NCBI RefSeq assembly: GCF_900112135.1
Contig: NZ_FOLC01000016.1
Span: 1-64,000 of the forward strand
Direction of reading: 5' to 3'
From: Collimonas sp. OK412
GTDB lineage: Bacteria; Pseudomonadota; Gammaproteobacteria; Burkholderiales; Burkholderiaceae_D
Length of the DNA: 64,000 nucleotides
The notes under the pieces are model-generated. The model searched no databases. It was not told where the DNA came from and saw only the letters and a program-made list of their open reading frames with translations. This document shows positions 45,288-52,537 of the stretch, in pieces. A program made the translations under genes and the position numbers. The stretch's first letter is position 1, and every line of letters begins with the position of its first letter.

Positions 45288-46031
45288 TCACGCTACCTCG
45301 CTCCGGCTGGTTTCATTCAAGCGCACCCGCAGGCGGCTGATGGCCTGGCTATGCAGCTGGCAGACGCGCGACTGGCTGACTTCCAGGATGGCGCCGATTT
45401 CACGCAGGTTCATTTCCTGCTCGTAATACAGGCTGAGCAGCAGCCGTTCGCGTTCCGGCATCAGGGCGATCGCCTCCACCAGCATATGGCGCATGCCGCT
45501 GTCCAGCAGACGCTGCAACGGATCGGCGACGCCGCTGCGATCGCTGCTGTCGTGCTGGCGGTCGAGAAACGAATTTTCATTGCTGCCGCCTTCGCAGTCT
45601 TCGTAGTACACCAGCTGCGAACCGTGGATTTCCTGCAGCAGATGCTGGTAGTCTTCCAGCGACAGCTGCATCGACACCGCGATTTCACGCTCGCTGGGCG
45701 GACGCGCCAGCTTCTGCTCCAGCGCCTGCACCGCAGCGTCGACCTTGCGCGACGACTGCCGCAAGCCGCGCGACAGCCAGTCGTTGGCGCGCAGCTCGTC
45801 CAGCATCGCGCCGCGGATACGCTGGCTGGCGTAGGTTTCGAACTGCGCGCCCTGGTCATCCTGGTAGCGGTTGGCGGCGTCCAGCAAACCCAACATGCCG
45901 GCCTGGATCATGTCGTCCAGCTCCACGCTGGCCGGCAATTTCGCGATCAGCTGCAAAGCCAGGCGCCGCACCAGCGGCGCGTATTGCGCCAGTGTGTCGG
46001 ATTTATCGATTTTTCCCTGAGCCGTATACAT
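45288..46031 (-). CDS. fliA: Flagellar sigma factor FliA (sigma-28)
   Basis: 247 residues. Regions 2, 3 and 4 of a sigma-28-type factor are present: the region 2 segment with D-D-M-I-Q-A-G-M-L-G-L-L-D-A, R-I-R-G-A-M-L-D-E-L-R, and the region 4 helix-turn-helix with L-R-E-I-G-A-I-L-E-V-S-Q-S-R-V-C-Q-L-H-S-Q-A. FliA transcribes late flagellar, motor and chemotaxis genes. Sigma-28 promoters with the expected form lie throughout this window. It follows flhG by 24 bases. Confidence 0.97.
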   Translation of the reverse strand: MYTAQGKIDKSDTLAQYAPLVRRLALQLIAKLPASVELDDMIQAGMLGLLDAANRYQDDQGAQFETYASQRIRGAMLDELRANDWLSRGLRQSSRKVDAAVQALEQKLARPPSEREIAVSMQLSLEDYQHLLQEIHGSQLVYYEDCEGGSNENSFLDRQHDSSDRSGVADPLQRLLDSGMRHMLVEAIALMPERERLLLSLYYEQEMNLREIGAILEVSQSRVCQLHSQAISRLRVRLNETSRSEVA

Positions 46032-46055: not shown

Positions 46056-46859
46056 TCACACAGTGTCCAGATTTCGGTTAACAACAGGGCGCGGCCATTG
46101 CAGCAGCTGGCCAGCGATGCGGCGGAAATCGATTGCCGCGGCGCTGGTCTGGAATGCTTCCACCACGCTCAACTTGAGTCCCAGCGCGCGCACCAGCTGC
46201 GGGTCTTCCGCGACGCAGCCGGCAGGCTCCAGCGCCAGCCCCAGGTAACGGCTGCCGGCGCCGGCCAGGTTGCCCAGCACGCGCTGCGCCTCCGGCATGC
46301 CGGCCGCCAGGTTGAGCATGATCCGCAGGCGCTGCAGGGCATGCGCGTAATGCAGCTGCTTGATGCAGGCGTAGGCAGCCGTGATGGAAGCCGCCTGCGG
46401 CCGCAGCAGCACCACCACATCGTCGGCCTGCGCCGCCAGCGGCGACAAGGCGCCGTCGCGGTCCAGGCCGGCGTCGACCAGGATCACCTGCCCCTGGAAC
46501 AGATTGCGCACCTCAGCCACGGCAGGGGCATCGCCCTGGCGCACCGCCAGCAGCAGCGCGCCGCACGCCAGGCGCGACGCCGCGGTTGACAGCGGCAGGC
46601 CGCCGGCGACATCGGACCAGCTGCACGCCGCGGCGCCGGCCCACATCGCCGTTGCCGACCGTGCGCCGCTCTGCTCGTCCAGCAGCAGCACTTCTTTTCC
46701 TTGCTGCACCAGGGCCGCGGCCAGGTTCAAGGCGACGCTGGTGACGCCTATCCTTGGACTGCTGCCGACCAGCGCGATGACGCGCGCCGCCTGCGTGCCC
46801 GAATGCTGCGCCATCAGGTTGCGCAAACCATCGGCCTGATCGCTGACTACTTTGCTCAC
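46056..46859 (-). CDS. flhG: FlhG/FleN-type MinD-like protein with altered P-loop
   Basis: 267 residues from a GTG preceded by GAGGGG at 6 bases; a longer frame would overlap flhF. Order next to flhF and fliA, and the MinD-like fold (R-V-I-A-L-V-G-S-S-P near residue 27, N-L-A-A-A-L-V-Q-Q-G-K-E-V-L-L-L-D, then V-I-L-V-D-A-G-L-D) identify FlhG. The P-loop is odd: positions 32-40 read GSSPRIGVT, so the conserved Walker A Lys is Val and the leading Lys of the MinD signature is absent. ATP binding may be lost. FlhG normally limits the number of flagella. Confidence 0.85.
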   Translation of the reverse strand: MSKVVSDQADGLRNLMAQHSGTQAARVIALVGSSPRIGVTSVALNLAAALVQQGKEVLLLDEQSGARSATAMWAGAAACSWSDVAGGLPLSTAASRLACGALLLAVRQGDAPAVAEVRNLFQGQVILVDAGLDRDGALSPLAAQADDVVVLLRPQAASITAAYACIKQLHYAHALQRLRIMLNLAAGMPEAQRVLGNLAGAGSRYLGLALEPAGCVAEDPQLVRALGLKLSVVEAFQTSAAAIDFRRIAGQLLQWPRPVVNRNLDTV

Positions 46860-46869
46860 AGACGTCCCC

Positions 46870-49290
46870 TCATCCGGGCAGCGCCGCAGTGCCCGGCGCC
46901 GGCGCCAGGCCGGGAACGCTATCGGCATCCAGCGCCAGCGCATCCAGCAGGGCGATCAGCTTGCCGAAGCCTTCAAACAGCGCTGCCGCGGAAGTGGCGC
47001 TGGCCGCGCCGGCACGGATCCGATGACCGGCCAGCTGCGCCAGCAGCGTGCGAGCGGCGCCGGCCCAGCTGTCGCGGTTGTGCGCCAGGCGCCAGACGGT
47101 GGTGCTGACTTGTGCAGCGACCAGCAGGCGCTTTTGCATCCGGCTGTCACCCGGCTCGGTGCAGGCATCGAGCTGCTGGACCGCTTTCTTGAGCAGCTTG
47201 TAGTAAGGATCGGCGGCTTGTTTCCAGCAGGCCCACGCGGCAAGCTGCGACGCCGTCGCCGATGGCGCAAGATTGGCCAGCAGGTACCAGCCGGCCAGCA
47301 ATTTTCCGCTGTGCGGATCGACGATGCGCACGGCCACGCAACGCAAATTGAATGCGCCCGCATCGTGCCGTTTATCGCCGGGCAAGGCGACTGTCGTCTC
47401 CGCCAGCATCTGTTGCGCCGGCTTGCCCTTGTAGAGCATCGCCTGGGGTGCATCGAACACCAGCCGCGCCGCCAGCTTCGCCAACGATGTCCTGCCTGCG
47501 CCATCCAGCACGCAAGTAGTGCCGCGCGCACGGGCCAGCCATGACATGCCTTCAGCCTGCCAGGATTCGATCAAGCCTGGCGCCGGCATTTTGTCGAGCA
47601 GGTGCACCACCGGCTTGCCGAAATCCTGGCCATGCACCCACGCCAGCTGGCGCAGCGCCGGCGTGGCTACAGCGCCGTTTGCCGCGGCGGCAAACACGGT
47701 GGACAGCAATTGATGCGGCGCCGCCAGCGGCATGCCGTCGCGATCCGACAGCAGCACGCTGGATTGCAAGGCATAGGCGTCGCCGCTGCGGCTGGCGGCC
47801 AGCTCGGTCTTGCCGCTGATTGCCAGCACATGGCTGTTGCAAGCAACGCCGATTTCCGTTTTCGCATGCGCCAGCAGCTTGTGAACCACCGCCTGGCTGC
47901 CGGTGCTGTCGTCCGCCAGGTCGCGCCATAACCGGCTGCTGGTCTCGAAGCCGATCCCGCCGCCGGCCAGCGCAGCGGCGTTGGCCGCCAGCTCTTCGGC
48001 GTCCTGCGCCAGCACCCGGATCAGTTGCCGGCATTGGCCGCGCAAGCGTTCGGTAGCGGCAGACGCGGCCGCCAGTTCGGCGTCGTTGTTCAATGCTGCC
48101 GGCAGCTCGCCCAGGTCAGCTTCGCCCGGGACAAACAAGGCGCTGCGGCTGGCGCTCTGGAACACGCTGTCGACCAGTTGCGAACGCTCGGCCAGCATCA
48201 GGTTTTCCGGCACTTTCTGGCCGCAAGAAACGTAGTGCACCGGCAGCCGGTGGCGGATCACGGTGTCCAGCAATGCGCCGGGATGGGTGGCTTCGTCGGT
48301 CTTGGTGAAGATGCAGCCCGCCAGCTGGTTGCCGCCGGCGCTGTCCTTGTAGGCATGCACCACCTCATTCAGGGTGTCGCCGTGGCTGGCGGCGTTCAGC
48401 AGCAGCAAGCGCTTGACCGGGCGGCCGGCGCCGCACAGCATGGCGACCTGCTCGGAGACGCTGCGGTCGCGCTGGCTCTTGCCGACCGTATCGATCAGGA
48501 CCATGTGCTTGTCGCGCAAATCCTCCAGCACCAGCCGCAGGTCGGCGGCGTCTTTCACCGCATGCACCGATACCCCCAGGATCTTGCCGTAGATGCGCAA
48601 CTGCTCGAATGCGCCGATGCGGTAGCTGTCGGTAGTCAGCAGCGCCAGCTTGTCGGCGCCGAAGCGCATCACGCAGCGCGCCGCCAGCTTGGCGGTGGTG
48701 GTGGTCTTGCCGACCCCGGTCGGGCCCATCAAGGCATAGACGCCGCCGCCATCCATCAGCGCATCTTCGTTTTCCATCAACGGCAGGTTGCGCGCCAGTT
48801 CGGCCTTGACCCATGCCATGCCGGAGGCAAAATTCTGGCCGGTCGGCAGGTGGTCCAGCATCGCTTTCGCCAGGCTGGCGCTGAAGCCGGCGCCCAGCAA
48901 GGTGCGCAGCAGATGGCCGCGCACCGGGTCGCGGCGCTGCTTGTCGTTCCACACCAGGCCGGCCAGCTGCTCCTCGATCATGCCGCGCATCGAATGGATT
49001 TCGCTGATAACGCTACCGTTGCTGTCCGTGCCGGATGGCGCGGCGGCGCTTGTAGCTGGCTGTATGACCACTGGTGCTGCCACCGTCGCCGGTACGGCAA
49101 CCACAGGAGCCAGGGTTGGTGCCGGCGCCGGCCGCGCATCGCCCGCGGTTTCCAGCATGGCGACGATTTCGGCGCCGGCGGCGGTCGCCCGGCTGGAAAC
49201 GATGATGGCGTCCGGCCCCAGCTGTTCGCGCACCAGGCGCAGCGCTTCGCGGCTGGACGGGGCGACGATGGTGACGCTGTCAGTGTGCAT
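46870..49290 (-). CDS. flhF: FlhF GTPase fused to a transposase-like C-terminal domain
   Basis: 806 residues from ATG 49290 (AAGG 7 bases upstream); a TTG two codons earlier with GGAGG is an alternative. Residues about 1-395 are FlhF: a basic N-terminus, a Pro/Ala linker, the N domain and an SRP-type GTPase with P-loop G-P-T-G-V-G-K-T (189-196), D-T-V-G (267-270) and T-K-T-D (329-332). The usual protein ends here. The remaining 410 residues read through in frame. By eye they follow a Tn5/IS4-type transposase: V-L-A-I-S-G-K-T-E-L (about 488-497), Q-S-S-V-L-L-S-D-R-D-G-M-P-L (509-522), V-V-H-L-L-D-K-M (561-568), G-W-Y-L-L-A-N-L (667-674) and Y-Y-K-L-L-K-K (696-702). Positions of the catalytic residues are changed, so it should be inactive. 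Confidence 0.9.
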   Translation of the reverse strand: MHTDSVTIVAPSSREALRLVREQLGPDAIIVSSRATAAGAEIVAMLETAGDARPAPAPTLAPVVAVPATVAAPVVIQPATSAAAPSGTDSNGSVISEIHSMRGMIEEQLAGLVWNDKQRRDPVRGHLLRTLLGAGFSASLAKAMLDHLPTGQNFASGMAWVKAELARNLPLMENEDALMDGGGVYALMGPTGVGKTTTTAKLAARCVMRFGADKLALLTTDSYRIGAFEQLRIYGKILGVSVHAVKDAADLRLVLEDLRDKHMVLIDTVGKSQRDRSVSEQVAMLCGAGRPVKRLLLLNAASHGDTLNEVVHAYKDSAGGNQLAGCIFTKTDEATHPGALLDTVIRHRLPVHYVSCGQKVPENLMLAERSQLVDSVFQSASRSALFVPGEADLGELPAALNNDAELAAASAATERLRGQCRQLIRVLAQDAEELAANAAALAGGGIGFETSSRLWRDLADDSTGSQAVVHKLLAHAKTEIGVACNSHVLAISGKTELAASRSGDAYALQSSVLLSDRDGMPLAAPHQLLSTVFAAAANGAVATPALRQLAWVHGQDFGKPVVHLLDKMPAPGLIESWQAEGMSWLARARGTTCVLDGAGRTSLAKLAARLVFDAPQAMLYKGKPAQQMLAETTVALPGDKRHDAGAFNLRCVAVRIVDPHSGKLLAGWYLLANLAPSATASQLAAWACWKQAADPYYKLLKKAVQQLDACTEPGDSRMQKRLLVAAQVSTTVWRLAHNRDSWAGAARTLLAQLAGHRIRAGAASATSAAALFEGFGKLIALLDALALDADSVPGLAPAPGTAALPG

Positions 49291-49292
49291 GT

Positions 49293-51398
49293 TCAAGCCT
49301 TGCCTCCGATAGTGGCGGTTACTTTGATGGTGCGGGTATCAGGAATTTCAGCGTGCGACAGCACCTTGAGCTGCGGCAGGCTGCGGCGCAGGAAGCGCGC
49401 CAGCAAGACCCGCAGCGGATGCTGCACCACCAGCACCGGCGACAGGCCGAACTGTTCCTGGCGCGCGATCGCGGCCTGGGTCTGCGCCAGCAGGCTGTCG
49501 GCCAGCCCCGGCTCGAGCCCGCTGCCGTTGCTCAATGCCTGCAGCAGGACGCGGTCGAGCGAGCCGTCGAGGCCGATCACCTGCAGTTCGCCGTTGCCGG
49601 GGAACAGCTGCTGGGTGATCGCCCGGCCCAGCGCCAGCCGCACCAGCGATGTCAGTTCGGTGGCGTCGCTGACCGTGCCTCCGTGCTCCAGCAGGACGTC
49701 GAGGATGGTGCGCATGTCGCGTATCGATACGCTTTCGTCCAGCAGGTTTTGCAATATTTTCTGCAGCGTCGTCAGCGACAGCAGCTTGGGCACCAGGTCT
49801 TCGATCAGTTTCGGCGCGTCCTTGGCGACCCGGTCCAGCAGCTGCTGCACTTCCTGCCGTCCCAGCAGTTCCGCCGAATGGGCATGGATCAGGTGGTTCA
49901 GGTGGGTGGCGATCACGGTGCTGGCGTCGACCACGGTGTAACCGTAGATCTGCGCCTGTTCCCGCATGTGGCTTTCGATCCAGACCGCCGGCAGGCCGAA
50001 CGCCGGATCGGCCGTCTGCACGCCGGGCAAGGTGGCGCTGACCTGCCCCGGATTGATCGCCATCCATTGGCCAGGCCAGGCTTCGCCATTGGCGATCTCG
50101 ACGCCTTTGAGCGTGATCACATAGGAATTCGGCTTGAGTTCCAGGTTGTCGCGGATGTGCACTACCGGCACCAGGAAGCCGATGTCCTGCGCGAACTTCT
50201 TGCGGATGCTCTTGATGCGGCCCAGCAGTTCGCCGTTCTGGCTGCGGTCGACCAGGGAAATCAGGCGGTAGCCGACTTCCAGTCCGAGCGGATCGACCAG
50301 CGCCACGTCGTCCCAGCTGGCGTCCGCCGGCTCGGCAGCTGCCGCGGACGGCGGCGGCGCCTTGGCGGCATATTCCACCGCCGCGTTTTTCTGCAGCAGG
50401 CGCCGGCCGAGATATACCAGGCCGCCGGCAATGATCAGGAACGCCACATGCGGCATGCCCGGCACCAGCCCCATCAGGCCGATGATGCCGGCGGTCAGGA
50501 ACAGCACCTGCGGATTGGAGAACAGCTGCCCCATCAGCTGCTGGCCAACATCTTCATCGGTCGTCACGCGCGAGACGATGACGCCGGCGGCGGTAGAAAT
50601 CACCAGCGCCGGAATCTGCGCCACCAGGCCGTCGCCGATGGTCAGCAAGGTGTAGTTCTTGGCCGCCACCGAAATATCCAGGCCATGCTGGGCGACGCCG
50701 ACGATCAGGCCGCCGACCACATTGATCACCATGATCAGCAAGCCGGCCACCGCATCGCCGCGCACGAACTTGCTGGCGCCGTCCATGGAGCCGTAGAAAT
50801 CCGCTTCCTGCGCGACCTCGGCGCGGCGCTTGCGCGCTACGTCCTCACCGATCAGGCCGGCGTTGAGGTCGGCGTCGATCGCCATCTGCTTGCCAGGCAT
50901 CGCATCCAGCGTGAAGCGCGCGCCGACTTCAGCAATCCGCCCCGCGCCCTTGGTGATGACCATGAAGTTGATCACCACCAGGATCACGAACACCACGATG
51001 CCGACGGCGAAATTGCCGCCCACCAGGAAATGGCCGAAGGCTTCGATCACCTTGCCGGCGGCGTCCGGCCCGGTATGGCCCTCCAGCAGCACCACACGGG
51101 TGGAAGCGACGTTGAGCGACAGGCGCAGCAAGGTCGAAAACAGCAACACCGCCGGAAAGGCGGCGAAATCCAGCGCTTTCATGGTGTACATGCTGACCAG
51201 CAGCACCATCACCGACAGCGCGATATTGAAGGTGAACAGCAAGTCGAGCAGGAACGGCGGCAGGGGCAGGATCATCATGCCCAGGATCATGACGATCAGC
51301 ACCGGACCGGCCATGCCCTTGACGCTGTTGCCGGCCAATATGGCGGCCCCCAGGCGGGGCAAGGAACTGAATGAAAAAGCTGGGCCTGCTGGCTTCAT
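49293..51398 (-). CDS. flhA: Flagellar export gate protein FlhA
   Basis: 701 residues. Eight membrane helices in the first 320 residues, with the family's FHIPEP-region features (D-A-M-P-G-K-Q-M-A-I-D-A-D-L-N-A-G-L-I and E-A-D-F-Y-G-S-M-D-G-A-S-K-F-V-R-G-D-A), followed by the cytoplasmic nonameric domain of about 360 residues. FlhA is the main export-gate component that sorts chaperone-substrate complexes. It overlaps flhB by 4 bases and its stop overlaps the flhF start region. Confidence 0.98.
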   Translation of the reverse strand: MKPAGPAFSFSSLPRLGAAILAGNSVKGMAGPVLIVMILGMMILPLPPFLLDLLFTFNIALSVMVLLVSMYTMKALDFAAFPAVLLFSTLLRLSLNVASTRVVLLEGHTGPDAAGKVIEAFGHFLVGGNFAVGIVVFVILVVINFMVITKGAGRIAEVGARFTLDAMPGKQMAIDADLNAGLIGEDVARKRRAEVAQEADFYGSMDGASKFVRGDAVAGLLIMVINVVGGLIVGVAQHGLDISVAAKNYTLLTIGDGLVAQIPALVISTAAGVIVSRVTTDEDVGQQLMGQLFSNPQVLFLTAGIIGLMGLVPGMPHVAFLIIAGGLVYLGRRLLQKNAAVEYAAKAPPPSAAAAEPADASWDDVALVDPLGLEVGYRLISLVDRSQNGELLGRIKSIRKKFAQDIGFLVPVVHIRDNLELKPNSYVITLKGVEIANGEAWPGQWMAINPGQVSATLPGVQTADPAFGLPAVWIESHMREQAQIYGYTVVDASTVIATHLNHLIHAHSAELLGRQEVQQLLDRVAKDAPKLIEDLVPKLLSLTTLQKILQNLLDESVSIRDMRTILDVLLEHGGTVSDATELTSLVRLALGRAITQQLFPGNGELQVIGLDGSLDRVLLQALSNGSGLEPGLADSLLAQTQAAIARQEQFGLSPVLVVQHPLRVLLARFLRRSLPQLKVLSHAEIPDTRTIKVTATIGGKA

Positions 51399-52537
51399 GC
51401 CGGGCTTCCTAAAGTGTCGAGTGAATCGGGAACCGGCAGGTCGGCCGGTGTGCGTGGCGCGATGCCGCCCTCGCTGCGCCAGCGCTGCAGCTGGTAAACC
51501 CAGGCCAGCACTTCAGCCACCGCGGTGTACAGCGCCGCCGGGATTTCTTCGCCCAGGTTGGTATGGCGATACAGCGCCCGGGTCAGGGGCGGTGCTTCCA
51601 GCATGGGAATCTTGTGTTCGGCGCCGATGGCGCGGATGCGCAGCGCTACCAGGTCGGTGCCCTTGGCAACCACCCGGGGCGCGCGCATTTCCTTGTCGCT
51701 GTATTTGAGCGCGACCGCAAAGTGGGTCGGGTTGGTGACCACCACGTCGGCGGTCGCCACCTCGGCCATCATGCGCCGCCGCGCCATCTGTTGCTGCTGG
51801 CGCCGGATCTGCCCCTTGACGTGCGGATCGCCTTCGCTTTCCTTGTGTTCCTGCTTCAGCTCTTCGCGCGTCATGCGCAGCTTGCGGTAATAACTCCACA
51901 GCTGGTAGGGCACGTCGATGGCTGCCACCAGCAGCAGCGAAGCAATGATCAGGCCGCAGCAATTGGCCACCAGCCGTACCGTATGCGCCAATGCGCCGTG
52001 CACCGGTTCGCTCAGCAAGCCCAGCAGCGTGTCCAGATTGCGCGACATGACCCAGTAGGCGATGCCGCCCACCAGTACCGATTTGGTGCATGCCTTGAAC
52101 AGTTCCGCCAGCGACTGGCTGGAAAAGATGCGAGCAATACCGGCCATTGGATTGAGCTTGGAGAATTTGGGCGCCAGCGCATCCGGCGCAAACAGCCAGC
52201 CGCCCAGCATCAGCGGCGCCGCCAGGGCCGCCAGCGCCAGCATGGCCAGCAACGGCAGCAAAGCCTGCAGCGCTTCCTGCCCGGCAGCAGCGGCCTGGGT
52301 CAGCATATAGGAGGTATCGAAGCCGGCGGCGCGCTTGAATTGCATGCCCTGCCGCAAGGCATGGCCGATATGCTCCGCCATCGGCACGGCCGTCAGCCAC
52401 AAGCCGCCTATGCCGGTGCTCAGCATGACAAACGTGCTCAGCTCGCGCGAACGGGCAACCTGGCCTTCTTCGCGCGCCTTTTCCAGGCGCCGGGGAGAAC
52501 CGGGTTCCGTCTTTTCGAGATCGCTTTCTTCCGCCAT
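51395..52537 (-). CDS. flhB: Flagellar export switch protein FlhB
   Basis: 380 residues. Four membrane helices (within about 30-215), a connecting helix, and the cytoplasmic switch domain with the autocleavage motif N-P-T-H in V-V-T-N-P-T-H-F-A-V-A-L-K-Y. FlhB changes specificity from rod/hook to filament proteins when FliK signals. It is the first gene of the flhB-flhA-flhF-flhG-fliA-flhE run, all minus strand with short overlaps or gaps. Confidence 0.98.
   Translation of the reverse strand: MAEESDLEKTEPGSPRRLEKAREEGQVARSRELSTFVMLSTGIGGLWLTAVPMAEHIGHALRQGMQFKRAAGFDTSYMLTQAAAAGQEALQALLPLLAMLALAALAAPLMLGGWLFAPDALAPKFSKLNPMAGIARIFSSQSLAELFKACTKSVLVGGIAYWVMSRNLDTLLGLLSEPVHGALAHTVRLVANCCGLIIASLLLVAAIDVPYQLWSYYRKLRMTREELKQEHKESEGDPHVKGQIRRQQQQMARRRMMAEVATADVVVTNPTHFAVALKYSDKEMRAPRVVAKGTDLVALRIRAIGAEHKIPMLEAPPLTRALYRHTNLGEEIPAALYTAVAEVLAWVYQLQRWRSEGGIAPRTPADLPVPDSLDTLGSPA

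Follow-up and report, generated by a model that had tools for sequence, protein, structure and literature searches.

Evidence for a domesticated IS4-type transposase domain in the flagellar GTPase FlhF of Collimonas and other Burkholderiales

FlhF sets the place and number of flagella in many bacteria. We report that FlhF of Collimonas sp. OK412 carries, behind its GTPase domain, a C-terminal region (residues ~430–790, within what is called the tail from here on) that is homologous, as judged by sequence comparison, to a nearly full-length IS4/Tn5-type transposase, from the N-terminal helical region through the C-terminal helices, and we regard a transposase origin of the tail as very nearly certain. 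A preliminary description of the locus had proposed that FlhF is fused to a domesticated transposase of the Tn5/IS4 type whose catalytic site is broken, and the proposal holds on the sequence evidence presented here. Given the loss of a residue required for cutting and the retention of the domain by selection, it seems that a selfish gene has been taken into the machinery that assembles flagella.

Results

The window FlhF is a long, uninterrupted protein encoded in a flagellar locus

The window, i.e. the whole stretch of 64,000 nucleotides analysed here, contains the following flagellar genes and domain.

51395..52537, minus strand: flhB (Pfam Bac_export_2)
49293..51398, minus strand: flhA, the upstream neighbour of flhF (Pfam FHIPEP)
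46870..49296, minus strand: flhF open reading frame, 808 amino acids from a TTG codon or 806 from the ATG at 49290, two codons later
48160..48741, minus strand: SRP54-type GTPase domain of FlhF, residues 186–379 (Pfam PF00448, E 3.2e-34)
46056..46943, minus strand: flhG open reading frame, with the DQADGLR motif kept and without the Walker A lysines; its true start is probably internal
45288..46031, minus strand: fliA-type sigma factor (Pfam Sigma70_r2, r3, and r4)

The protein is identified as FlhF by its GTPase domain, by the FlhF model TIGR03499 (252.3 bits against a cut-off of 174.15), and by the gene order flhB-flhA-flhF-flhG-fliA. Its frame (46870–49296) has no internal stop or frame change, in agreement with the ~806 residues in one frame given in the preliminary description. 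The window flhG was named from its DQADGLR motif and its position, and no Pfam family was found in its product. Further, the curated family NF011312/PRK14723 (768 positions) aligns to residues 10–787 of the window FlhF, tail included, and long FlhF is therefore already known as a family. The window protein scores 876.7 bits with this model, below the cut-off of 951, and a Cupriavidus-like FlhF (L094) scores 979.8 bits as a partial query. Four partial queries that begin 75 residues before the P-loop (two from family f4, one Cupriavidus-like, and one from g15) match PRK14723 from about position 118 to the end.

The tail is homologous to IS4/Tn5-type transposases over nearly their whole length

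We note that no Pfam match was found in the last ~410 amino acids of the window FlhF and that the window tail alone retrieved no PDB sequence at E 10. A profile built from 12 tails likewise gave nothing convincing in the PDB, Tn5 included (three sequences at E 0.79–2.1). When these 12 tails were compared with Pfam, five families were returned with one member each (best E 0.032), and assignment of the tail to another domain family was rejected.

46930..47997, minus strand: domesticated IS4-type transposase domain, residues 434–789 (hhalign match over 355 columns, given below)

Comparison with PDB sequences and Pfam thus gave no convincing match, but profile-profile comparison (hhalign) of the FlhF tails with three transposases did, with a probability of 100 and an E value of 1e-39 over 355 columns. 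The transposase landmarks that had been read in the tail in the preliminary description are present and fall on those of the transposases when the sequences are aligned. Three Tn5-type transposases of the L010 group were matched with a probability of 94.5 and an E value of 7.4e-8 over 151 columns. In the reverse direction, a profile made only from the three transposases found the window FlhF at E 8.2e-36 in a search of 299 genomes of the phylum. By BLASTP, the window tail matches the autonomous transposase L182 with 145 bits (28% identity over 381 amino acids) and the transposase L050 at E 2e-19; the tail of a relative, L023, matches L050 at E 1e-23 over 344 amino acids.

A single-sequence search of 100 related genomes with the tail matched 10, each with one match: nine of these are FlhFs, and the tenth, a weak match (E 2.3e-5), lies on a transposase of the Tn5 type that has both a Dimer_Tnp_Tn5 and a Tnp_DNA_bind domain. 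With the 12-tail profile, 12 of 399 genomes of the order were matched at E ≤ 0.001, seven of which carry FlhF (G000, G003, G537, G351, G502, G428, and G457) and five IS4-type transposases or fragments thereof (G536, G414, and G327, called by Pfam, and G514 and G090, called by eye; L054 and L058 were called transposase pieces by eye). The best free-standing match was L050, a transposase of 416 amino acids (E 8.9e-46), which matches Pfam DDE_Tnp_1 above cut-off and, among PDB sequences, Tn5 transposase at E 2.4e-6. Among 229 genomes of the class, the same profile matched G000 and four others (G1168, G1208, G1329, and the genome of L182, itself a free-standing transposase), and a tblastn search of plasmids with the tail returned 13 records, nine annotated as 'transposase' and four unannotated Cupriavidus loci. 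Chance or composition as the source of the match was rejected by controls: all six real transposases scored 64–145 bits against the window tail by BLASTP and 87–190 bits with the 12-tail profile, compared with at most 27.7 and 8.3 bits, respectively, for 1,206 control sequences (1,200 shuffled and six reversed).

The nearest relatives found for the tail are the IS4-type transposases of the L050, L182, L107, and L109 group, found on chromosomes and plasmids, which are homologous to it over nearly its whole length but are free-standing genes, whereas the tail is part of FlhF. Tn5 transposase (PDB 1MUS and 3ECP) lies in the same superfamily as the tail via L050 and also via L010, which matches the tail directly. 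The superfamily named in the preliminary description is therefore upheld, but the closest relatives found belong to this group and not to Tn5 itself, which L050 matches.

The first catalytic aspartate is replaced in all aligned FlhF tails

47812..47814, minus strand: Gly495 (TTG numbering), aligned at the first catalytic Asp, with the stretch behind it shortened
47593..47595, minus strand: Asp568, aligned at the second catalytic Asp
47209..47211, minus strand: Asp696, aligned at the catalytic Glu of the YREK-like helix

The catalytic positions were compared by aligning 20 FlhF tails to three transposases (L050, L107, and L109); the helix name YREK and the residue numbers of Tn5 are the customary ones or those of the preliminary description. 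None of the 20 FlhFs keeps the first catalytic Asp, which is mostly replaced by Gly and otherwise by Ala or His, and the stretch behind it is shortened, so that the DDE triad of an IS4/Tn5-type transposase is not present. Gly495 and Asp696 correspond to residues 493 and 694 counted from the ATG, where the preliminary description had placed a Gly instead of the first Asp and, probably, an Asp instead of the Glu. In L050 all three positions are acidic, unlike in the FlhF tail, which lacks the first acidic residue. Because L107, although annotated as a transposase, shows Asn at this position and L109 is too short, the comparison of the first Asp rests on L050, whose HDW motif is, by eye, also found in L182. 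In the Collimonas group, 12 of 13 tails have Asp or Glu at the second position and all 13 have one of these at the third, as would be expected if the tail were still an active DDE nuclease or transposase; this reading was, nevertheless, rejected on the alignment and has a negligible probability in our estimation, for the first Asp is missing throughout (though it is missing in L107, too), the third acidic residue is Lys, Gln, or Arg in five of five f4 tails, and each matched genome has one match only. In the f4 tails, the second position is acidic in four of five; the Cupriavidus-like pair has Ser or Asp at the second position and Glu at the third.

A tail that does not cut DNA might still bind it and thereby anchor FlhF at the nucleoid, at particular sites, or at flagellar promoters. 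This is the main rival to the interaction module that we discuss below, and we think it unlikely. IS4/Tn5-type transposases bind DNA, and in the YREK-like helix of the Collimonas group all 13 sequences have Lys or Arg at the K position and 12 of 13 have one of these at the R position. Two transposases of the nearest group, L050 and L107, have net charges of +11 and +9, and the 20 FlhF tails range from −6 to +4; however, the shorter transposase L109 has a net charge of −3 and the Tn5-type transposase L010 one of 0, which makes a near-neutral charge compatible with DNA binding. Against DNA binding, the share of residues that have ceased to be basic at 17 conserved basic positions is 38% in the Collimonas group, 59% in the Cupriavidus-like tails, and 67% in the f4 tails. 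Considering the charges of L109 and L010 and the 62% of basic residues kept in the Collimonas group, the charge argument is weak. The tails are also without a Pfam Tnp_DNA_bind match, which counts for little because the autonomous L050 itself reaches just E 0.043, below cut-off.

Long FlhF is conserved and under purifying selection in Collimonas

Nine of 15 Collimonas genomes carry flhF, and all nine encode the long form without an internal stop, so an assembly error or a frameshift in the window was rejected. The preliminary description had named, as a refuting case, normal-length FlhFs in related genomes together with an assembly error here; short forms do exist, but they are another form of FlhF and do not point to an error in this locus. 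The remaining six genomes (G001, G002, G005, G006, G010, and G013) have no such FlhF and, because they have no FlhA-type match above 50% identity, seem to have lost this flagellar system or never to have had it. In G005 and G006 we detected only distant FHIPEP relatives (35–50% identity), which perhaps belong to type III secretion systems.

Selection was estimated from dN/dS in 36 Collimonas pairs by the Nei-Gojobori method with Jukes-Cantor correction, which saturates for distant pairs. The median was 0.228 in the tail, compared with 0.036 in the GTPase and 0.382 in the linker-rich N terminus; the tail value was below 1 in all 36 pairs, with a maximum of 0.394. Constraint on the tail is, therefore, about six times weaker than on the GTPase, and the conservation of the fusion under purifying selection, a point raised in the preliminary description, is confirmed for the genus. 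The transposase domain thus occupies a fixed locus, is under purifying selection, and has a broken catalytic site, by which we call it domesticated.

Distribution of long FlhF beyond Collimonas

The genome searches described here were samples of each group. In the family of Collimonas, 164 of 195 genomes have a match to the window FlhF. Among the matches listed, the alignment reaches the end of the tail in 10 genomes (seven Collimonas, G107, G147, and G128) and stops at residue 440 or earlier in all others; normal-length FlhF is the rule in the family among these matches. In f31, 108 of 150 genomes match. The tail is covered in 14 of them, all from the Cupriavidus-like genus g133, and in the remaining 94 the alignment does not go beyond residue 393 of 714. 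One of the four Cupriavidus loci returned by the plasmid search, that of C. metallidurans CH34, was read and encodes an FlhF of the same long kind (825 amino acids). In f4, by a hand count of the match table, the alignment goes far into the tail (past residue 500 of 683) in 83 of 101 genomes with flhF; the other 18 comprise 15 short forms and three long frames whose alignment ends early (G789, G457, and G832). We take f4 to be probably Alcaligenaceae-like and the short f31 forms to be probably Burkholderia-like. A single stop lies within the match in 13 of the 83 f4 rows, and the four of these that were read as loci (L089, L142, L144, and L145) have a full-length tail before the stop. The fusion is thus older and wider than one genus, occurring in Cupriavidus and, within a third family of Burkholderiales, in most of the flhF-bearing genomes sampled.

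We also considered that the tail might be a remnant that is tolerated, does little or nothing, and slowly decays. Its constraint, weaker than that on the GTPase, its strong divergence between families, and its absence from the short Burkholderia-like FlhFs are what such a remnant would show. However, the dN/dS values below 1 in every Collimonas pair, the residues conserved across families, and the f4 genomes that align into the tail (13 of these rows with one stop inside) argue against decay, and we consider this reading improbable.

As a separate observation, FlhF of G537 (f49; locus L096) is 74% identical to that of the Collimonas group over the first 400 residues (E 4.0e-164). Among the matches listed, eight other f49 genomes gave far weaker matches (E 7e-59 to 3e-69), which suggests horizontal transfer of the flagellar gene.

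A single capture is the simplest reading of the tail's origin

47110..47112, minus strand: Gln729 of FlhF, invariant in 41 of 41 FlhF tails; of five transposases aligned, four have a residue at this position and none has Gln

In a tree of tails and transposases, 16 FlhF tails lie on one side of a branch (100/98) and 11 transposases on the other. In profile comparisons, the f4 tails are closer to the Collimonas group (E 4.1e-24) than to the transposases (E 6.8e-15), which the Cupriavidus-like tails match at E 2e-12. The GTPase tree, which covers 49 of 51 named loci (L066 and L072 were left out because the P-loop pattern was not found), is less simple: three short Burkholderia-like FlhFs stand beside the Collimonas group (89/86), and two changes between long and short are needed, one sufficing in 6% of 200 bootstrap trees. 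A gain together with a loss in the short Burkholderia-like forms would, for instance, account for these two changes. Alternatively, flhF genes in different families might have captured transposases of the same group independently; the position of the three short FlhFs would fit this, but the single clade of FlhF tails, the Gln729 common to them, and the proximity of the f4 and Collimonas-group profiles all argue against it, and we think that independent captures are improbable. Single capture is the simplest reading, short of proof. One capture event would have placed an IS4-type transposase gene at the 3' end of flhF, in an ancestor of a Burkholderiales FlhF lineage, and the domain would have been retained in Collimonas and its kin, in Cupriavidus, and in the third family. 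In the short Burkholderia-like lineage it would then have been lost, or a second gain would have occurred.

FlhG in genomes with long FlhF

The Walker A motif of the window FlhG reads SSPRIGVTS, without lysine, and DQADGLR is retained. Most FlhGs read in related loci are also without GKT, whether FlhF is long or short, those of L065, L070, L085, and L106 having it. A link between long FlhF and lysine-less FlhG was dropped because most short-FlhF loci read also have a lysine-less Walker A motif.

When 14 f4 genomes with long FlhF were searched with the window FlhG, none gave a clear match: 10 had no match at E 0.001 and four had weak ones (E 8.3e-5 to 9.5e-4), in a search by which a very divergent FlhG could be missed. 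In f1 and f31, the same search gave matches of E 1.6e-17 or better in five of five genomes. Further, no flhG neighbours the long flhF in the 12 f4 loci read (among L089–L093 and L140–L151). In these 12 loci, from 11 genomes, a flgN-like frame lies downstream of flhF on the opposite strand (flgN-like and flgA-like frames were named by eye). G332, also of f4, has two other small genes downstream of flhF, and by eye the pair of small open reading frames at L091 3738–4852 in this genome looks like an excisionase-type antitoxin and a PIN-type toxin.

These observations suggest that FlhF with a tail may be able to act independently of the polar FlhF/FlhG scheme. It is conceivable, though rather unlikely, that capture of the domain uncoupled FlhF from polar placement and from control by FlhG and so helped some Burkholderiales to flagellate elsewhere on the cell. 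Such uncoupling fits f4, because all 14 long-FlhF genomes are without a clear FlhG match, and it would fit Bordetella bronchiseptica, which is reported to have a predicted FlhF and yet to be peritrichous (PMC7064773), if f4 is the family of this species and its FlhF carries the tail.

Discussion

As a whole, the explanation that combines a single capture, loss of cutting, and a non-enzymatic interaction module is, in our view, the best and a somewhat probable one. A non-catalytic interaction module would be the most likely function of the tail, with a chance that comes close to even. The tail would no longer cut DNA and may instead form a folded, non-enzymatic interaction surface, either for self-association or for a partner at the flagellar base, which could give FlhF a second input on where, when, and how many flagella begin. 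Self-association is proposed because transposases dimerise: those of the Tn5/IS4 type act as dimers, and PF02281 is named as the Tn5 dimerisation domain. To our knowledge, binding partners of FlhF other than FlhG are poorly known, and a transposase-derived domain that is conserved across three or more families of Burkholderiales provides a defined, removable module of this protein. The tail may also help to explain the presence of FlhF in some bacteria without polar flagella.

The author of the preliminary description knew of no such fusion in the literature. The long FlhF itself is not new, being curated as NF011312/PRK14723. Among the open-access papers listed by our searches, subscription papers lying mostly outside this scope, none describes in its title or abstract a transposase-derived domain in FlhF, and the tail is not described in those on PRK14723 or on FlhF in Bordetella, Ralstonia, Collimonas, or Burkholderiales. 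Nor did we find, in these titles and abstracts, a DDE transposase that bacteria had domesticated by fusing it to a core cell-biology GTPase, of which the FlhF tail would be a case.

Compared with known FlhFs, the long form shares its GTPase with the short FlhF (TIGR03499) of other Oxalobacteraceae and Burkholderiales, which has an FlhG motif directly downstream in most loci read. The short form ends 219–234 amino acids after the P-loop in nearly all loci read (254 and 288 in two), whereas long forms extend 596–694 amino acids beyond it. The description of NF011312/PRK14723 speaks of FlhF only and leaves the tail unnamed. Mobile-element enzymes have been recruited by prokaryotes before, as described for Cas1 (PMC8987985) and for TldR, a recruited mobile-element protein that acts on flagellin (PMC13418256). 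Both resemble the FlhF tail in that a mobile-element enzyme was taken for another role, and TldR shares with it the link to flagella. Cas1 and TldR are separate proteins of other superfamilies, whereas here a DDE transposase would have become a domain of a flagellar GTPase.
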